Origin: a virus
Length of the DNA stretch: 21,504 nt
Direction: 5' to 3' (one strand)
IMG/VR virus record: IMGVR_UViG_3300047157_000119
Location: 1-21,504 of that record
Every line of letters starts with the position of its first letter. Within the stretch, counting starts at the first letter, position 1. Shown in pieces: positions 1-21,500 of this stretch. The notes below the pieces were generated by a model. That model searched no databases. It worked only from the letters and a program-made list of their open reading frames with translations, and was not told the DNA's origin. A program made the translations under genes and the position numbers.

Positions 1-42
1 AGTTTTCTCGGTATCGGTGCGAAATCTCAGAAACTTTCTCAG

Positions 43-75
43 AAAAAAATCACAGGAATCAGCTCCATCCCGCGA
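43..75 (-). terminator. Rho-independent terminator of the minus-strand RNA
   Basis: Read on the minus strand, TCGCGGGA (75-68) pairs with TCCTGTGA (57-50) as an uninterrupted 8-bp stem with two G-U pairs and a 10-nt loop, followed directly by seven T (49-43). On the plus strand the same two positions would be A-C mismatches and there is no T-run, so the signal is specific to minus-strand transcription. Confidence 0.65.
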
Positions 76-255
76 ATTTGCCCAGGCTCTCTCACTACTC
101 ATGCGTACGGTACGCTTCCTAGCGTGATAGGGGTTCGCATTTGATTTCGTCTGGAGTTTCTTGCTCCTTCGGTCGGTTCGGAGCGGGTGAAGTTGGAGTA
201 GTAAGAGTAATATCGAGAGAATTCCTATCCAAATACGAATGAGAATCATTCTCAT
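43..255 (-). ncRNA. Candidate Fur-controlled structured small RNA
   Basis: On the minus strand, transcription from the promoter at 290-262 would start near 255 and stop at the T-run at 49-43, giving about 210 nt. Seen folds: an 8-bp 5' hairpin made by the Fur palindrome; a 12-bp closing helix, CTCTTACTACTC (207-196) with GAGTAGTGAGAG (100-89); inside it GCTCC (184-180) with GGAGC (167-163), or alternatively GGAG (167-164) with CTCC (156-153); and a long arm ATGCG/CGCAT (140-136 with 105-101) capped by ACGCT-AGGA-AGCGT (125-112). The arm holds an unpaired C-rich strand, AACCCCTATC (135-126), of the sort that could pair with ribosome binding sites. Three pairs are G-U on this strand but would be A-C mismatches on the plus strand, so the minus strand is the RNA strand. 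Known Fur-repressed sRNAs (RyhB, PrrF, NrrF) spare iron; I see no RyhB core, so any equivalent role is inference. Targets are unknown. Confidence 0.6.
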
Positions 256-256
256 T
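238..256. promoter_or_regulatory. Fur box (ferric uptake regulator operator)
   Basis: AATGAGAATCATTCTCATT is a perfect 9-1-9 palindrome. It fits the gammaproteobacterial Fur pattern TGAnAATnATTnTCA at every fixed position. It lies from about -1 to +18 relative to the start predicted for the minus-strand promoter, where iron-loaded Fur would block initiation. The divergent plus-strand promoter begins 77 bp away, so it is a less likely target. Iron-dependent repression of the minus-strand RNA is inferred. Confidence 0.75.
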
Positions 257-261
257 TAGAG

Positions 262-290
262 CTTATATCATACTTTGGGCCAAATGTCAA
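262..290 (-). promoter_or_regulatory. Sigma-70 promoter of the minus-strand RNA
   Basis: Minus strand: a consensus -35 TTGACA (290-285), a 17-bp spacer and -10 TATAAG (267-262), placing the start near 255, next to the Fur palindrome. The correct spacing and the matching terminator 210 nt downstream support a real transcription unit. Confidence 0.65.
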
Positions 291-333
291 GGGTTTTATT
301 TGCTTTTTTGCTGCAGAATATCGGCGAATTTCC

Positions 334-362
334 TTGACAATTCATGTTCAGCCCCCTATACT
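334..362 (+). promoter_or_regulatory. Strong sigma-70 promoter for the small-gene operon
   Basis: Consensus -35 TTGACA (334-339), a 17-bp spacer and -10 TATACT (357-362). The predicted start is near 369, ahead of the first phage gene. This is the host-polymerase type expected for early or middle phage genes, unlike the TATAAATA boxes before the structural genes. It is divergent from the minus-strand promoter at 290-262, and the two -35 boxes are 43 bp apart. Confidence 0.75.
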
Positions 363-393
363 AGCTATGTAAACAATGAAAAAGAGAGAGAAA

Positions 394-654
394 ATGACAA
401 AGTATATTGAAGATATTAACAGTATTGGTTTTAACGAACTGAAAGTAAACATGAACTACGAAACAGGAACTAGAGGAGAGAATGCTTGTAGGATAGTGAG
501 TAAAGGTTCAGAACTAGACCAGATGTATGCTAGGACATATCATGAATACTTAAAGAAAACGAGAGAAGAAAGAATCAGAAAAGAGAAAGAGATAGACTAT
601 ACTTTAGGATTCACAGAACAAGAACAGATTGATATAGAGAGAAAATTTGGATGA
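394..654 (+). CDS. Hypothetical phage protein, 86 aa, first gene of the operon
   Basis: I do not recognise this protein. It is soluble and strongly charged, with a Lys/Arg/Glu-rich helical stretch in its second half (KKTREERIRKEKEIDYT) that could form an alpha-helical or coiled segment. I prefer the ATG at 394 over the in-frame one at 376: the promoter predicts transcription from about 369, leaving the upstream ATG almost leaderless, whereas the purine run AGAGAGAG sits just upstream of 394. The stop overlaps the next start as ATGA, so the two are probably translationally coupled. Its place directly behind a strong host-type promoter suggests early expression. Function unknown. Confidence 0.7.
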   Translation: MTKYIEDINSIGFNELKVNMNYETGTRGENACRIVSKGSELDQMYARTYHEYLKKTREERIRKEKEIDYTLGFTEQEQIDIERKFG

Positions 655-767
655 ATACAAAAGTAATAACAATGAATGAGGTAATTAAGATGATTGAGAT
701 ACAAATATTCGGTTCGCTATTCCTAATAGCAATAACAATTAAACTACTTGGTGAGGCATACCTATAA
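651..767 (+). CDS. Membrane microprotein, 38 aa
   Basis: The 38-residue product begins MNTKVITMNEVIKMIEIQ and continues as one hydrophobic helix of about 17 residues (IFGSLFLIAITIKLLG), so a single-span inner-membrane peptide is likely. The start overlaps the previous stop as ATGA and its own stop overlaps the next start as TAATG, the pattern of coupled genes, which is the main reason to accept so short a frame. I recognise no family. Small membrane proteins of T4-like phages sometimes act on the host envelope or in superinfection exclusion; nothing here shows which, if either, applies. Confidence 0.55.
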   Translation: MNTKVITMNEVIKMIEIQIFGSLFLIAITIKLLGEAYL

Positions 768-880
768 TGAAATATGTATTAAGTGATATAAAAAGAGGAT
801 TTAAGATTAAGACAATTATGCGAAGACATGACATATCAGCTACACTAGTGATAGCTTGTATGAGAATCGTACAGAACTAG
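767..880 (+). CDS. Basic microprotein, 37 aa, possible helix-turn-helix
   Basis: A 37-residue, strongly basic product whose middle (IKTIMRRHDISATLVIACMR) reads like a compact helix-turn-helix: a helix, a turn at HDIS, then a second helix. DNA binding is a guess from this pattern and the charge. The start is coupled to the preceding gene (TAATG at 765-769). It is the last gene before a 200-bp non-coding stretch with strong hairpins, which a small regulator might affect; that is speculation. Too short for a firm family assignment. Confidence 0.5.
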   Translation: MKYVLSDIKRGFKIKTIMRRHDISATLVIACMRIVQN

Positions 881-1083
881 ATTTCTCTCTAGGATGGCTC
901 TACATGGATACATGATTCAGAGCCATCGCTCAGAGGACAACGGCCACCCCCTGCTATGTAGCGCTGAGTGACCCAATCTATAAATGTAATAAGTATCAAG
1001 AGAGATATACAGAGAGAGCCACCACCCCCTAATCCTAGAACAAACAAAACAAATCAATACAAAAAATTTTTCGGAGGTAAATT
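881..1083 (+). other. Non-coding structured leader between small genes
   Basis: No gene is visible here. GATGGCTCT (893-901) and AGAGCCATC (919-927) form a perfect 9-bp stem. Next to it CGCTCAG (927-933) pairs with CTGAGTG (964-970), seven pairs with one G-U that favours the plus strand. Part of the first loop, ACAT (902-905), can pair with ATGT (956-959) in the second loop, a possible loop-loop contact. There is no T-run, so these are not standard terminators. CCACCCCCT occurs twice (944-952, 1022-1030). A late-type box TATAAAT (979-985, last base G not A) follows, so transcription may restart here. The stretch ends with the ribosome binding site GGAGG (1073-1077). Confidence 0.5.
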
Positions 1084-1242
1084 ATGAATATGAAAGAACT
1101 GGTCAAAGAGATAAAGAAAGAACAACTACAAAAGGATAGACAAAAGAAACTGCGTCTTGCACAAGAGATTGAGTGGTTTGCTTCTATCGAGGGTCAGTAC
1201 AATACAAGTGAGAACTATTTTAAAGGAGAGTACAACAAATGA
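1084..1242 (+). CDS. Hypothetical charged protein, 52 aa
   Basis: A 52-residue protein, not listed by size-limited gene finders. The ribosome binding site CGGAGGT sits seven bases before the ATG, the best in this cluster, and decides the start. The N-terminal half is a Lys/Glu/Gln-rich amphipathic helix (KELVKEIKKEQLQKDRQKK), the C-terminal half is more ordinary (EWFASIEGQY). Family unknown. The stop overlaps the next ATG (ATGA at 1239-1242). It opens a second run of coupled small genes after the hairpin leader. Confidence 0.65.
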   Translation: MNMKELVKEIKKEQLQKDRQKKLRLAQEIEWFASIEGQYNTSENYFKGEYNK

Positions 1243-3644: not shown

Positions 3645-5100
3645 ATGAACGAAAACTATTTCATGGGCCTCGATGGCTTTGTATGGTTTACTGGTGTTGT
3701 AGAAAATCGTAATGACCCTGCAAAACTTGGTAGAGTACAAGTCCGTTGTTTAGGATACCATACACAAGATTTAAATGATATCCCATCAAAAGATTTACCA
3801 TGGGCTCATGTCATGCACCCTGTCACCGACCCTGCATGCAAGGTATGGGAAACTCACCTAGTTTTCTAACTAGAAGGAACATGGGTAGTCGGATTCTTTC
3901 GTGATGCAAACGAAAAACAACAACCACTTATCATAGGTTCATTACCTGGCATACCAGGTTCAACTGCAGATATGACAGAGGGATTTAATGACCCACAAGG
4001 ACAATACCCATCGGCAGACATTGACCATTCAGGTCATGGATTAAATGAATCAGATGTATCAAGACTTGCAAGAGGACAAGATGCAGAAACTCATGAACTA
4101 TTAATTAATCGTAGAGGTACTCAATGGAAAGAAATACCTACTGCAACCAAACCAGATGTATCAACAGTATCAACAAATTCTAAAGCAGAAACTGCTGGAA
4201 CTTTTGATGAACCACAATCCTCGTAATGTAGAAAAGACTGGTGGGTCAACAGGTGTCTATCCTTTCAATCATGTATACGAATCTGAATCAGGTCATGTGT
4301 CATGAGATAGATGATACAACAGGTGGAGAGAGATTATTAAGACAACATACATCTGGTACCTTATGAAGAAATTGTTGACACAGGTACAAAGACAGTTAAG
4401 GTTGTAGGTGACAACTATGAATTGATTGCTGGTGCATCTAACATGTTATGTGAAAGGAAATATTAATTTAACATGTGACGGAACTAAGAGAGAAAAGATT
4501 ACGGGTGATTATATATTAGAGGTTGGTGGTGACTTCACAAGAAAGATACACAAATCAGAACAAGTTAAGATTGGTGCTGGAGAAGCTGGTGGAAATCTAG
4601 AAGAAGAAATAATTGGTAATCATGGATTTAATATTTCTAATTCTGTATCTGGTGCAATAGGTTCTACAGAGAAAGGTACAGCAAAAGATTGTGATATTAC
4701 TATCGGTGGAAAAGAAACAAGAACGATTGGTGGAACTTATGATATAACTTCTGTTGATAGTTATTCTGTAGTATCTTTAAAAGATGTATTAGTAGGAGCA
4801 AGTAATAATATAACAATGTCAAGTGTTAAAGGAACTTCTATATCTTCTGGTACAACCATGACAGTTAAGGCTGCAACAAATCTAGATATTAAATCAGAGG
4901 CAGTAGGTACAATGACATTCGTTGGTAATTCAAGTGCGATTAGCTTTACAGGTTCATCAGGCACAATTAATCTTTCTGGTTCAGGTAGTACAATTACAAC
5001 TACACAAGAAGTTACTGCGAATACTATTGCACTTACAACTCATACACATACTGATACAGAAGGTCTGGCAGCTAACATAACATCAGCACCTAATACATAG
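3645..5100 (+). CDS. gp5: Baseplate hub spike gp5 (lysozyme-less), frameshifted
   Basis: The trimeric hub and cell-puncturing spike of the tail. The OB-fold start DGFVWFTGVVENRNDPAKLG and VRCLGYHTQDL match gp5 of marine T4-like phages, as does EGTWVVGFFRDANEKQQPLI and GSLPGIPG. From about 4440 to the end is the repetitive beta-prism needle (ITGDYILEVGGDFTRKI and many Gly/Ser/Thr repeats). T4 gp5 has a lysozyme domain between these parts; none is visible here. Frame breaks fall near 3836 (missing A), 3868 (extra A), 4217, 4302, 4363 and 4445, all repaired by one or two bases, so I give the whole span. Because the late promoter leaves no leader for 3645, the in-frame ATG at 3663 (MGLDGFVW) may be the true start. 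Confidence 0.8.
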
Positions 5101-7145: not shown

Positions 7146-9069
7146 TGGCAACAAACGATAAAAGATTAAGAGTAACAGAATTAGACTTTGACAATATTAA
7201 AGATAATTTAAAAACATATTTAAAAGCACAAACAGAATTTAAAGACTATGACTTTGAAGGTTCTGGTATGAATATTCTATTAGATACTCTTGCATACAAT
7301 ACTCACTACTTAGGATTCAATGCTAACATGTTGGCAAATGAAATGTTTTTAGATAGTGCATCACTTCGTTCAAGTGTAGTATCTCATGCAAAAACTTTAG
7401 GTTATGAAACAACATCAGCAAGAGCATCTAATGCTACAATTAATATAAATTTAACAACAAATTCTAATACAAAAACAATGTCGGCAGGTACAGCATTTAC
7501 TACAAGTGTTGACGGAACTGATTATCAGTTTGTACAATTGCTGATGTGACTGCAAGTAATACAGGTAGTGCTGTTCCATTTGATAGTGTAAAAATTTATG
7601 AAGGTAGTTATATTACAACAAGATATACAGTAGATACTTCTGATGTTGACCAAAGATTTTTATTAAGTGATGCTAATAGTGATACTTCTACTTTAACAGT
7701 TAAGATACAAACATCAAGCTCTGATACAACAACTACAACTTATACTAAAGCAACAGACATAACACAACTATCTCAAGTAGCACTGTTTATTATTTACAAG
7801 AAACTGATAGTGGTTTATTTGAAGTTTACTTTGGTGATGGTACAGTTAGTAAAGCTTTATCAGATGGTAATATTGTTATACTACAATATGTGGTTACAAA
7901 TAAAACTTTAGCAAATGGAGCAAGTACATTTAGTTCACCATCAAGTATTGATGGTGTTCAACAATTACAGTTACAACTGTATCAGGTGCAACTGGTGGTT
8001 CTGAAGCTGAAAGTATACAATCAATAAAATTAATGCTCCATTAGATTATGCAGCTCAAGGAAGATGTGTAACAGTAGATGATTATAAAACTTATACTAAA
8101 AAATTATTTGCAAACACTCAAGCAGTTTCTGTTTGGGGTGGAGAAGATGGTAGTTATGATACAAGTACAGGTGTATCATCTAACCCAGAATATGGTAAAG
8201 TGTTTATCTCAATTAAATCTACTACAGGTGAAAATTTAACAACTGTACAAAAGAGTAACTTAGTTCAGCATTTGCTCCATTCAAAGTTGCTTCAATTACA
8301 CCAGTGGTTGTAGACCCAGAAACAACTTATCTAATTTTAAATGTTTCATTTAATTATGATTCAACTGCAACAACATCTACTAAAGATGAGTTAGCAAGTT
8401 TAATATCTACAACTGTTTCTAATTACAACTCAACATGACTTACAAGAATTTAATAGTTCGTTTAGACATTCTAAACTATTAGGACTAATTGATGATACAG
8501 ATACATCTATATTAAATAATACAACTACAGTCACTCTGGGTAAATTTTTTACACCAGTAAGTGAAACATCATCATATAATATTAATTTTAACAATGCATT
8601 TTTTAATCCCCACTCAGGTCATAATGCACTGGTGGTGGAGTAATTGCATCTACAGGATTTTATCTAGATAATAGTACAAAACAGAATACTTTTTTGATGA
8701 TGATGGCTCTGGTAATTTAAGAATTTATTCTTTATCCACTGGTCAAGTAAGAACATATCTAAACTCAGAAGCAGGTACAGTAGATTATACTAATGGTACA
8801 ATTAGTACAACAGCATTATTAATTTCTGCAGTATCAAATGTAGATGGTGCATCATCAACACAAATTCGTATAACAGCAATTCCAAAATCAAATGATGTGA
8901 TACCTGTAAGAAATCAAATATTAGAAATAGATTTAGTTAACACAACAACAGGTGGAACTGTTGATGCACAAGCAACTACAGGTGTGGGATATACTGTTAG
9001 TCAACAGGTACAACTTCAACTACAACTGTATCAACACCTTCATCTACACCAACAAGTTCGGCGTATTAG
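7145..9069 (+). CDS. gp6: Baseplate wedge gp6, heavily frameshifted
   Basis: About 640 aa when the frames are joined, close to T4 gp6 (660 aa). gp6 is a dimer that links the wedges into the inner ring. The N-terminus RLRVTELDFDNIKDNLKTYL, FEGSGMNILLDTLAYNTHY and LGFNANMLANEMFLDSASLR is typical of this family; PLDYAAQGRCVTVDDYKTYT, VWGGEDG and FAPFKVASITPVVVDPET follow further on. The conserved text jumps frame about nine times (near 7537, 7782, 7972, 8035, 8268, 8440, 8622, 8680 and 9003), nearly all repaired by one added base. The last part reads GYTVSSTGTTSTTTVSTPSS to the stop at 9067-9069. No decay of conserved residues is seen between breaks. Confidence 0.8.
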
Positions 9070-15542: not shown

Positions 15543-18500
15543 ATGGCACAAATAACAGATTTAAATGTTTCACCATATTATGATGATTTTGATGAAGCAG
15601 ATAACTTTCATAAGGTACTCTTTAGACCAGGGTATGCTATTCAAGCAAGAGAGTTAACACAACTACAATCTATTTTACAAAAACAAGTAGAACGACATGG
15701 TAATCACATGTTTAAAGAAGGTAGTATTGTTATACCTGGTCAACTATCTTATTCAGATGATTATCCAACACTACAACTTACATCAACATTTGCAGATGAA
15801 GAAATAGACCCAAGTCAATTTTTTGATTCAACAAATCCTGTAACAGTTACAGGAGTAACATCTGGTGTTAAAGCATATGTTACAGGATATCAAGCTGCAA
15901 CTGCAACAACACAACCTATACTATATCTTAACTATTATAAAACAGGTTCAGATAATTCATCAACAACTTTTAGTGATGGTGAAAATATAACTGCTGATAA
16001 AGCAATTACACATACTACAGGATATGCAAGTGGTGTGGCATCGGCAACTACATTTGCTACAGATGCATCTCAAACAGGTTCTGCGGCAACCATAGAAGAT
16101 GGTGTCATTTATATCAGAGGACAATTTGTAAAAGTAAACAGACAAACACTATTACTAAGTTCAAACTCTGTAACAGAAAGTGCAAGAATTGGTTTAACAA
16201 TTACAGAAACATTAGTAACACCAGAAGTAGATAGTTCACTTACAGATAACTCTAGAGGTTCATCTAACTATGCTGCTAAAGGAGCACACAGATTAAAAAT
16301 TAGTTTAACACTTGATAAACTTTCAACAACATCTACAGATGATTCTAAGTTTATTGAAATGATGAGAATAGATAGTGGTACTTTAGTTTCTAAAGCAAGA
16401 GCAACAGAATATTCAGTACTAGGAGATGTACTTGCAAGAAGAACACATGATGAATCAGGTGACTATACAGTTAGACCATTTACATTTAATGTAAGAGAAA
16501 GTATAACTAATACAGTAGAGGGTAAAAATTTCACAGGTATATACACATCTGGTAATCCTACAGATGATGGTGGAACTGCTTCAGAAGATTTACTTGCACT
16601 ATCATGTTCTGCTGGTAAAGCATATGTTAGAGGATATGAATTTGAAACTTTAGGAACAACATTTAAAGATTTAAATAAAGCAAGAGATGTTAAAACAATT
16701 AATGCTGGAGTTACTAACTTAGAGTTAGGTAACTTTGTTAGAATTACAAACTTATATAACACACCAGACATTGGTAGTGTAAGTGGTGAAACAACACCAT
16801 ACAAAGAAGTTAAATTATTTTCTGGTGCAACAGTTACAAGAGGAACAGTATCTACAGAAGAACCTGTAGGTGTTGCTCGTGTAAGAGCATTAGAATATGA
16901 TTCAGGTGTATCTGGTAATACAGATGCTGTATACAAAGCACATCTATTTGACATTCGTACATTTACAGTTTTAACTTTAAGTGATACACCAAGTCCATTA
17001 TTAACTGCAACACATTCAACAGGTGTAAAAATAACAGGTAATACTTCTGGTGCAACAGGTTTACTTTTTGATACAGATACAAGTAATGCTGAAGGCCATA
17101 GAGTTCGTTTAACAAATGTTGTTGGTCACATTTAATTCTGGTGAAAAATTAATTGCATCAGATTCAGCTGAAACAAGTGGACTTATAGAAAATTCAGGTA
17201 ACACAGATTTAACAGTTACTTTAGTCACTACAAGAGCATTTTCAGAAACAAGACAAATGTTTATGGATGATGCCGATAGTGGTCAAGACTTTACAGCAGA
17301 TATAGAATTATCTAAAGTAAGAGATACAGATTTAATTGCATTAAATGCTACAGATGCTAGTCTTGCAAATGCAAACGATAACATTTTACTAGAAGAAGAT
17401 GGTACTACTGAATTAGGTATTGAACCTATTAGAGAAGCAGTATTAGTATCACCAGAAAAAAATGTTGCAATATATAAACTACCTAAAGCTGTAGTTAAAA
17501 CTTTATTAACAGATTCAAATAATAATACTAGTGATACATCATATACAATTAGAAGACAGTTTGTTGCTACATCAAACAGTTCTGGTGTAATATCATTAAG
17601 TGCTGGAAGCAATGAAGTCTTTGGTGGATTTGCTGAAGTAGATTATGTAATGTCTATATTAACTGCTGGAGATGGTAGTGGTGTACAAGGAGATTTAGTA
17701 CCTATTTCTGGTAAGATATCTGGTACAGGTACATCAAGTATTACAATTACAGATAATACAATTTTAGGTAATGCAGCTAAAGTAAAAGTTATAGCAACAA
17801 TCGTTAAGTCAAGTGTTGCATCAAAAACTAAAACAACAAATTTATCTAAACAAGTTAAAGTAGTAACAGATGATGCAGATGGTGCATATGGATGTAGAGC
17901 AACAGACAAAGAAATATCTTTAGGTCGTGCAGATGCATTTAGGTTACAAGCAGTATTTGATTCAGAGAGTACAAGTTCAGATGCGACTGCTCCAACATTA
18001 ACATTGGGAACAGTTACAGGAACATTTACTAGAGGTGAAAAAATTACAGGTTCATCATCAGGTGCAACTGCAAGAATTATTACAACAACAAGTCCAATAC
18101 AATATGTACTTACAGGTGGATTTGGTGCAACAGACTTTACAACCTCTGATACAATTACAGGTGAATCATCAAGTGCAACATCTACAGTATCCACAGTAAC
18201 TGCTGGAAGTAAAGTGATTACTTCTAACTTTACATTAGACACAGGACAAAGAGATAACTTTTATGACATTGCAAGAATTGTAAGAAAGTCTAATGCAGAA
18301 AAACCATTAGGTAGATTACTAGTAGTATTTGATTTCTTTTCACATGGTACAGGAGATTTCTTTAGTGTAGATTCTTATAGTTCTATTAGTGGTCAAATGA
18401 ATTATGATGACATACCAACATACAGTGCTACAAAGATTGACCCAGATGACCCTAAACCATCAGGACTATTTCCTTTAAGAGATTGTTTAGACTTTAGACC

Positions 18501-21500
18501 AACAGCAGAAAACATTGCTGGAGCAACAGATACATTAACAGCAGTAGATACAATTACTGCAACTGCAAGTTCCTTTGACTTTACAAACAGACAATTTGAT
18601 GGCACAGGTGCTATTGCAATAGATACACCAAAAATTAATAATGCTTTAACTTGTGACTTTGAACATTACTTACCTAGAAGGTCTGTATTGTATATTGGAA
18701 CAGATGGTGAATTTAAAATTGTAGATGGTGTTCCTGCTGAAGACCCACAATTACCAGCAGTATTAGATAATGCAATGAAACTTGCAACAATAGATATTCC
18801 TGCTTACACATTTACACCAGCTGATGTAACAGTTACAAGAGAACAAACACAAAGATTTACCATGAGAGATATTGGTAAACTACAAAACAGAATTGAAAAC
18901 TTAGAGTATTACACTTCATTAAATCTATTAGAAAGAGATGCAGAAAGTTTACAAATATCAGATGTCAATGGATTGAACAGATTTAAATCTGGTTTCATAG
19001 TAGATAACTTTGCTGGACATAAAGTTGGTGATGTATTACACCCAGATTATAAAATTGCTATTGATATGGAAAATAGAGAGTTAAGACCTAAGTGTGTAAT
19101 GAAGGCTGCTAAGTTAGTAGAAAAAGTTACAACAGATGCTGCAAGGACAGTATCAGGTTATCAGAAGACTGGTGACTTACTAACATTACCATATGCAGAA
19201 AAAGATTTTATAATTCAACCATATGCAACAAGACCAGAGAATATTCAGTCAGCATTAATCTATGAGTATCTCGGAAAGATTACTTTAACACCTAGTGGTG
19301 ATGAGTGGTTTGAAACAGAACAGGCTCCAGATTTAATTATAAATGTTGATGGTAACTTTGATGCAGTAACAGCTGCAAATGAAAATAACATAGGAACAGT
19401 TTGGAATGCATGGGAAACACAATGGTCAGGTACAACATTCGTAGAATCAAGACAAGTCATTCGGAGAGCTGAGATATTTGGAGGGCGACCTGCATTGAGA
19501 ACAATTACTAACACAAGGTCAGACCAATTAAGAACAGGAACAAGAACAAGAGTTGTTGAACAAGTAGATAATATATCTATGGGTACTAAAACAATATCAC
19601 AAGCAATAATTCCTTTTGTTAGACCTAGAACAATTACTGGTACAGGTGAATGTTTCAGACCAAACACAAGACTATATGCTTTCTTTGATGGTACAGATGT
19701 TAGTTCATTTATTACACCAGCATCTGCAAGTTATACAAACTTAACTACAAATATTGTAGAGGGTAATGCTCTAATAACAGACATACAGGGTAAAGTAGAA
19801 TTTTCATTTAGAATACCAGAGTATAGATTTGCTGGACAACAAAGTATTCCAAAATTTAGAACAGGTGATGTAGAATTTAGATTAACATCAGATGATGAAA
19901 ATAAAAAAGCACCAGCTCCTACAACAGTAGGTCAAGTACTCTATGTTGCAAAAGGTATAACAAATACTGACCAACAAACAATTCATGCAACAAGAAATGC
20001 TACAGTAGTTCAAGAAACTGTTAATCAAACACGAACAATAAATCAAAGACGCCAAGATTTTCGAAGATGGTTGACCCACTGGCACAAACATTCTTAATAT
20101 CAGAAACAGGTGGATGTTTTATACCATCTGTAGATTTATTCTTCTCAGAAAAAGATAACTAACTTACCTGTATGGGTTGAGTTAAGAGAAGTAGTTAATG
20201 GATACCCAGGCCCAACATTAGTTCCATTTGGTAGAAAAGTTTTAAATCCAAACGATATTAATATAGATGCTACTACTGGTAATACTGCAACTAACTTTAA
20301 ATTTGATTCACCTGTATATTTAAAAGAGGAAATTGAATATTGTTTAGTTGTTATGACTAACAGTTTAAATTATAAAGTATGGATTGCTGGTTTAGGTGAA
20401 GCTGATGTATCTGGTTCAAATAGAATTATTTCTACACAACCACATCTAGGTTCATTATTTAAATCACAAAATAACACTACATGGAATGCTGTACAATCAG
20501 AAGACTTGAAGTTTACTATGAAAAAATGTAACTTCACATCTGGTTCTGGTACAGTTACTTTACAAAATGATAATCTAGGTGATTCTGTAACAGCAGAGGA
20601 TGGTAGTACAACAGTTTATGGACAAAGACTAGGAAGTAATCCAATCATATTAACAAACAGTTCAACAGTCGTAAGAGTTAAACACGCTGACCATGGTATG
20701 TATAGTACATCAAACAATGTTACAATCACAGGAGTTTCTTCTGGTGTATCAACAACATTGAATGGTGCAATTACAGCATCTGGTACAAGTGTTACATTAA
20801 CATCTTCTACAGGTTTCCCTTCAAGTGGTACAGTTCATATTAAGATAGACAATGAGATTATGTCTGGTACAATTTCTGGTACAACAATTTCTAGTATTAC
20901 TAGAGGACAAGGAAGTACAACAGCTGTTGCTCATTCAAATCTTGCAACAGTAGAATTATACATGATTAGTTCAATACCATTAACAGAGATTAATAAAACA
21001 CATACTGCAATTGCAAACATAGGAATAGATTCTTATACAGTTGCTTCTACTACAAGTGCATCAATTAGTGGAGCATCCACAACAGCACAAGTTGGTGGAA
21101 TAAATGTATATGCTACAGAAAACTATAGATACGAAACAGTTAAAACATTAATAGGTACTATGGAATTACCTAATACTTCATTGACTGCAACAATTAAAAC
21201 AACGAATGCTACAAGTCCAGCTGGTACAGAAACATCATTTGGTCAGTCAACATCAAATACTAGCAATTCCATTAAACGAAAACTTTGATGTGATCAAAAT
21301 CATCTATGATTGCTTCAGGCTATTAATGAAACAAATGAAATATCTGGTAGTAAATCATTAGAGATGCCAATAGTTATGACTTCTCAAAATTCTAATATAT
21401 CACCAGTGATAGATTTAGATAGAAGGTCGTTTATTGCTGTAGGTAATAGAATTAATAATGTAGATAGTTCTAGTGATGTATTTCCAACAACAGACTTTGT

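Follow-up and report, generated by a model that had tools for sequence, protein, structure and literature searches.

A word identical to a bacterial Fur operator, lying near the left end of a phage contig, raises the question of what such a site might do among viral genes. The stretch of DNA analysed here, called the window throughout, is a whole IMG/VR record, a linear fragment of 21.5 kb whose proteins (baseplate hub/lysozyme, tail and wedge proteins, and a 2OG-Fe(II) oxygenase) are those of a T4-like marine myophage. Because the baseplate hub/lysozyme gene and a phrog_358 gene are each split over several frames (3645–5100 and 15543–20097), the contig probably contains indel errors, unless these are real frameshifts.

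The sequence AATGAGAATCATTCTCATT is found exactly at positions 238–256 and forms a 9-1-9 palindrome of 19 bp with C/G at its centre, containing the 7-1-7 Fur core TGAGAAT-N-ATTCTCA. It scores 14 of 14 at the fixed core positions and 19 of 19 against the Xanthomonas Fur-box consensus AATGAgAATcATTctCATT, which is of the 7-1-7 type, was derived from nine Fur-repressed genes, and has been aligned with the Shewanella and Bacillus Fur boxes and, after a 3-bp shift, with that of E. coli (PMC1790865). The initial annotation had called a Fur box perfect at all fixed positions, and identity with the published consensus bears this out. No other place in the window comes within three mismatches of AATGAGAATCATTCTCATT, and 100 dinucleotide shuffles of the window gave a mean of 0.03 matches with three mismatches allowed, so that the claim that such a palindrome is improbable by chance also stands. 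By arithmetic from base composition alone, the exact word is expected about once per million such windows, and a chance origin is negligible.

The predicted operator (238–256, no strand assigned) covers the predicted start of a leftward promoter. On the minus strand the order is TTGACA (290–285), a 17-bp spacer, TATAAG (267–262), five bases and then the palindrome, after which some 235 bp remain to the contig edge. A simple promoter scanner missed this sigma70-type promoter, since it requires T as the final base of the −10 hexamer. The two hexamers are kept in three genomes: both relatives have the −35 and TATAAG at the same spacing as the window, with different letters in the spacer. Transcription is predicted to start about 7 nt past the −10, near position 255 and within the palindrome, in agreement with the earlier placement of the site at a promoter start. 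The reading of 238–256 as a putative Fur box and its predicted position at the promoter start are well supported, by identity with the published consensus, by the use of the word ahead of iron genes in marine bacteria and by its recurrence at promoters within the phage clade.

The stretch that would be transcribed from this promoter (1–235, minus strand) runs off the contig and is apparently non-coding, a candidate RNA. Its GC content is 48% versus 32% for the genome, and it carries a U-run at 43–49. The initial annotation had tied its reading to Fur-like sites in related phages and to a conserved RNA downstream; close relatives do carry sites, and 91 nt of the downstream stretch (111–201) are identical in three genomes. 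A leftward ORF was rejected as a gene, as the frame open in the window is not kept in the sister genome G001. Predicted folds are at best mildly more stable than those of shuffled sequences (z of −1.4, −1.2 and +0.2), and a 23-nt exact pattern from the conserved stretch, searched in IMG/VR, returned only the two relatives already known. The arrangement resembles that of the RyhB-type small RNAs, which are Fur-repressed, in that a Fur box sits at the promoter from which a short and seemingly non-coding RNA would be made, but the window's left end has no Rfam match and so no sequence relation to the known RyhB families. The window and the contig of the second relative, L123, stop at almost the same place, no more than two bases apart and at AGTTTTCTCGGTATCGG, where G001 reads through.

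On the other side of the palindrome, a rightward sigma70-type promoter (334–362, plus strand; TTGACA-17-TATACT, with the −35 at 334–339 and the −10 at 357–362) has its −35 79 bp beyond the 15-bp core and serves a 92-aa ORF (376–654, plus strand). The close relatives found through this ORF are L122, which is G001, and L123; both genomes keep both promoters and the core, and the spacer and flanking letters differ. In L124, which is 56% identical in the 92-aa ORF, a Fur-like variant site, AATGCGAATGATTCTCATT, lies upstream of the ORF. Further into the window, a sigma70 promoter matching the consensus at 12 of 12 positions is found at 2194–2222 (TTGACA-17-TATAAT, with TG before the −10).

The near-complete sister genome G001 (123,703 bp, with about 14 kb missing as judged by alignment with the window, i.e. 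about 90% of the genome present) places this single site in a wider setting. It holds seven perfect copies of TGAGAATSATTCTCA, the next best match being 12 of 14, and a reversed-pattern control gave zero matches. The window site is thus one of at least seven in a genome of this kind. ORFs of at least 60 aa cover 91% of G001; the seven sites lie between genes, at gene ends or in short ORFs of doubtful coding value. All seven are within 100 bp of a sigma70-type promoter, of the early type: at six of them a TTGACA promoter begins 13, 21, 32, 44, 79 or 93 bp downstream of the core, and the seventh sits just past one of these promoters. Such a promoter is found within 110 bp of only 2.8% of G001 positions, which puts the chance of the association, by arithmetic, at about 3e-9, or about 1e-3 if gene avoidance is allowed for, and the distances from site to promoter cluster irregularly. 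The adjoining genes encode a CobT-like VWA protein, a CobS-like ATPase (both names assigned by inspection), several small ORFs and the 92-aa ORF of the window. Rfam found no known RNA in G001 apart from one tRNA-Thr, and blastn of window positions 1–1100 and of a second G001 site region gave no match in INPHARED. Copies in L433, L434 and L095 and at position 49012 of G001 lie inside short ORFs and would be translated as ...DENHSH or ...NENHSQ..., sometimes with a stop directly after the site.

Since conservation cannot be proved with contigs that were retrieved by means of the site, relatives were fetched through neighbouring proteins, giving a distribution free of ASCERTAINMENT bias. Among 80 loci found with the CobS-like protein, only the two closest (81–82%) have sites; both carry all three, in one case with a single-letter change, and at one site of this region a different gene stands upstream and half of the flank is altered, yet the site is kept. 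With the FecR-like protein, perfect sites turned up at seven loci, that of G001 being one, and each of these belongs to the 15 loci of at least 81% identity; perfect sites were absent from the region compared in all 65 loci below 80%, SAR11 phage HTVC008M included. Some close relatives (84–92% in FecR) also have no perfect sites in the region compared. Losses can be seen inside the clade: at a place where the copy is intact in L014, L040 and L099, that of G001 has decayed to TGAGAAATTCTCA, and a 12/14 remnant survives in L432. Relatives by a 993-aa structural protein, other than G001 and the L123 record, are without TGANAATNATTNTCA in 46 of 48 cases and have one each in the remaining two. The perfect sites are thus confined to one clade of T4-like marine phages.

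Within this clade the letters of the core are held and those around it are not. At the three CobS/T-region sites and the window site, 14–15 of the 15 core columns are invariant, as against a low of 9 of 30 in one flank; the cyclase site has 12 of 15 invariant core columns, owing to a tandem-copy alignment and to variants. Each site stays with the same downstream promoter across relatives. The variants in related phages are other Fur-box forms, such as TGATAATCATTCTCA, TGAGAATCATTATCA and TGCGAATGATTCTCA, altered in one arm only.

We consider it probable that the sites are operators for the Fur protein of the host, coupling phage promoters to iron. The Fe-Fur of an iron-replete host would bind the phage copies. 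At the window copy, bound Fur would cover the leftward start and block RNA polymerase, repressing a transcript through the conserved non-coding segment. The other copies lie mostly 13–93 bp upstream of the −35, which would place the operator at about −57 to −137 from the start; there Fur may tune the promoters, whether by helping, silencing or insulating them, and we commit to no sign. Distal Fur sites with positive effects exist in other bacteria. Replication of the phage DNA would set its additional sites in competition with the few perfect Fur boxes of the host, and titration of Fur is likely to be a by-product and may be the main point. Three features sit less easily with this proposal. 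Most copies precede the promoter core, whereas in textbook Fur repression the site lies on it; the sites show an unusual uniformity (14/14), beyond that of typical host Fur regulons, which a binder specific to the phage would explain as well; and perfect sites are missing from the region compared in some close relatives.

The copy number bears on the proposal that the sites mainly titrate host Fur and derepress host iron uptake, with no role at individual promoters. Cloned Fur boxes on multicopy plasmids titrate Fur, as in the Fur titration assay. The perfect 15-mer occurs in 71 of 151 SAR86-order genomes, never in more than three copies, and in 18 of 80 Methylophilaceae genomes, again in at most three, as against seven in G001; because one phage genome exceeds any of these host genomes even before it replicates, titration is arithmetically plausible. 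The uniform, high-affinity type of sequence and the variable distance to promoters are consistent with it as well. The tie between sites and promoters, however, goes beyond what gene avoidance would give, and the constancy of the downstream promoter across relatives likewise argues for a local role. As a full account of the sites, titration is unlikely.

The near invariance of the copies within the clade and their placement at phage promoters would also be expected if the word were read by an unrecognised phage-encoded regulator, or some other regulator that is not Fur, and a gene for it could lie in the part missing from G001. No FUR-family gene was detected in the roughly 90% of the genome present in G001, a search that was positive in 14 of 14 control genomes, and the binder should therefore be the host's Fur. 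The variants in relatives, moreover, are established Fur-box forms, and marine bacteria carry the word ahead of iron genes of their own: the identical 19-mer precedes an FTR1 iron permease in SAR86, TonB receptors in SAR86, OM43-type and PS1 bacteria, and periplasmic or solute-binding proteins of the iron/haem kind. We regard a regulator other than Fur as distinctly improbable.

Many copies lie immediately after a stop codon or overlap one, and a transcript could form a stem of 6–9 bp, AAAUGAGAA/UUCUCAUUU, so that the sites might act at the RNA level, as a short hairpin, or as a bidirectional terminator, where genes end. Such a stem would have three G-C pairs only, and a T-run is absent; a true GC-rich terminator is present elsewhere in G001 (L088, near 8320–8350). 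The variants alter one arm and break the pairing, so that letters rather than pairing are conserved, which points to a protein site and not a hairpin. The intrinsic terminator was rejected for its one-arm variants and missing T-run, and an RNA-level element of this kind is very improbable. That the word is a chance palindrome or drifting repeat can hardly be credited, for although AT-rich genomes yield AT-rich palindromes and a second G001 copy has decayed, the shuffles gave almost none even with three mismatches, and the copies share a conserved core beside diverged flanks.

If host Fur is the binder, as we favour, the word might also indicate the host. It had earlier been taken to hint at a gammaproteobacterium; its presence in SAR86, a gammaproteobacterial group, agrees with this, but it occurs also in OM43-type Methylophilaceae, in alphaproteobacteria (PS1) and in Nitrosomonas, Massilia and Trichococcus, so that a gammaproteobacterial host is only suggested. 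The word fits SAR86 and OM43-type hosts, which are AT-rich and marine, and is not exclusive to gammaproteobacteria. By the 993-aa protein the closest cultured phage is the OM43 phage Melnitz (45%), with SAR11 and cyanobacterial myophages further away, and this points weakly to an OM43 host. The tRNA-Thr of G001 has its best match (89%) in one SAR86-order genome, on a 7.5-kb phage-like contig; this is at most a hint of a SAR86 host and possibly a binning error. That contig, L509 (G100:C8, 7528 bp), although binned in a SAR86-order genome, looks like a T4-like phage, and besides the tRNA-Thr match it encodes a ribonucleotide-reductase-like protein and a protein 50% identical to one of G001. The FecR-like protein, considered as a host clue, gave only weak matches, none above 42%, and these were to portions of other proteins, most of them very large.

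The phage sites resemble bacterial Fur operators in their identical 19-bp word, in their association with promoters and in sharing that word with FTR1, TonB and haem-uptake genes of marine bacteria; they differ in that a phage carries them, next to phage genes without any obvious link to iron, in that they outnumber the perfect copies of the candidate hosts, and in that most of them precede the promoter core. That a phage should have a Fur operator is not in itself new, since stx1 of the Shiga-toxin prophages is a Fur-controlled phage gene. There too, as proposed for the marine phage, host Fur acts on a phage-borne promoter, but stx1 is a single cargo gene of a temperate phage, whereas the marine sites are spread as an array over several promoters in the core genome of a T4-like phage.

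T5-like phages (Demerecviridae) of Escherichia and Salmonella also have multiple Fur-type sites, 4–10 per genome with both terminal repeats counted (G004–G007 and G012–G015), including the identical 15-bp core and TGATAATCATTATCA. Their enterobacterial hosts have a well-known Fur. These phages are unrelated to the marine clade, and their sites lie in the terminal repeats, some of them where the repeat is non-coding; in chee24 (locus L508, 7593–10753) the exact-word site falls in such a non-coding stretch. In all, 177 INPHARED records hold most of the 161-bp T5-like region with the exact word. A further dozen or so IMG/VR contigs (L003, L021, L034, L035, L036, L049, L051, L064, L067, L071, L081 and L092) share a module of about 40 bp, in which TTGACA-17-TATAAT-CGGCGCC is followed by a perfect Fur box at the start site. 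Some contigs carry two or three such modules; the sequence that follows the module is unrelated, often without an ORF close by, and these contigs are a second phage group with Fur boxes on promoters. The literature searched yielded no link of T5-like or marine phages to Fur boxes, though absence there is not proof. Nor does that literature appear to describe T4-like marine phages of one clade whose promoters carry perfect host-type Fur operators as an array, in numbers exceeding those of the candidate host genomes.

Iron is limiting across much of the surface ocean, and little is settled about how lytic phages deal with the iron control of their hosts. A phage whose genome exceeds each of 231 sampled candidate-host genomes in perfect Fur operators offers two testable links, one from host iron status to phage promoters and the other from phage DNA copy number to host iron uptake, and the sites provide a sequence handle for host prediction and for the search for further phages that make use of regulators of the host. 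More tentatively, it is possible that this T4-like marine lineage uses host Fur as its own regulator, such that its promoters and a phage RNA would respond to iron and replication of its genome would strip Fur from the few host sites, leaving the dying cell importing iron, and that T5-like phages and the unrelated IMG/VR contigs with the promoter and Fur-box module have come to do so independently. The phage may read or upset the iron control of its host.
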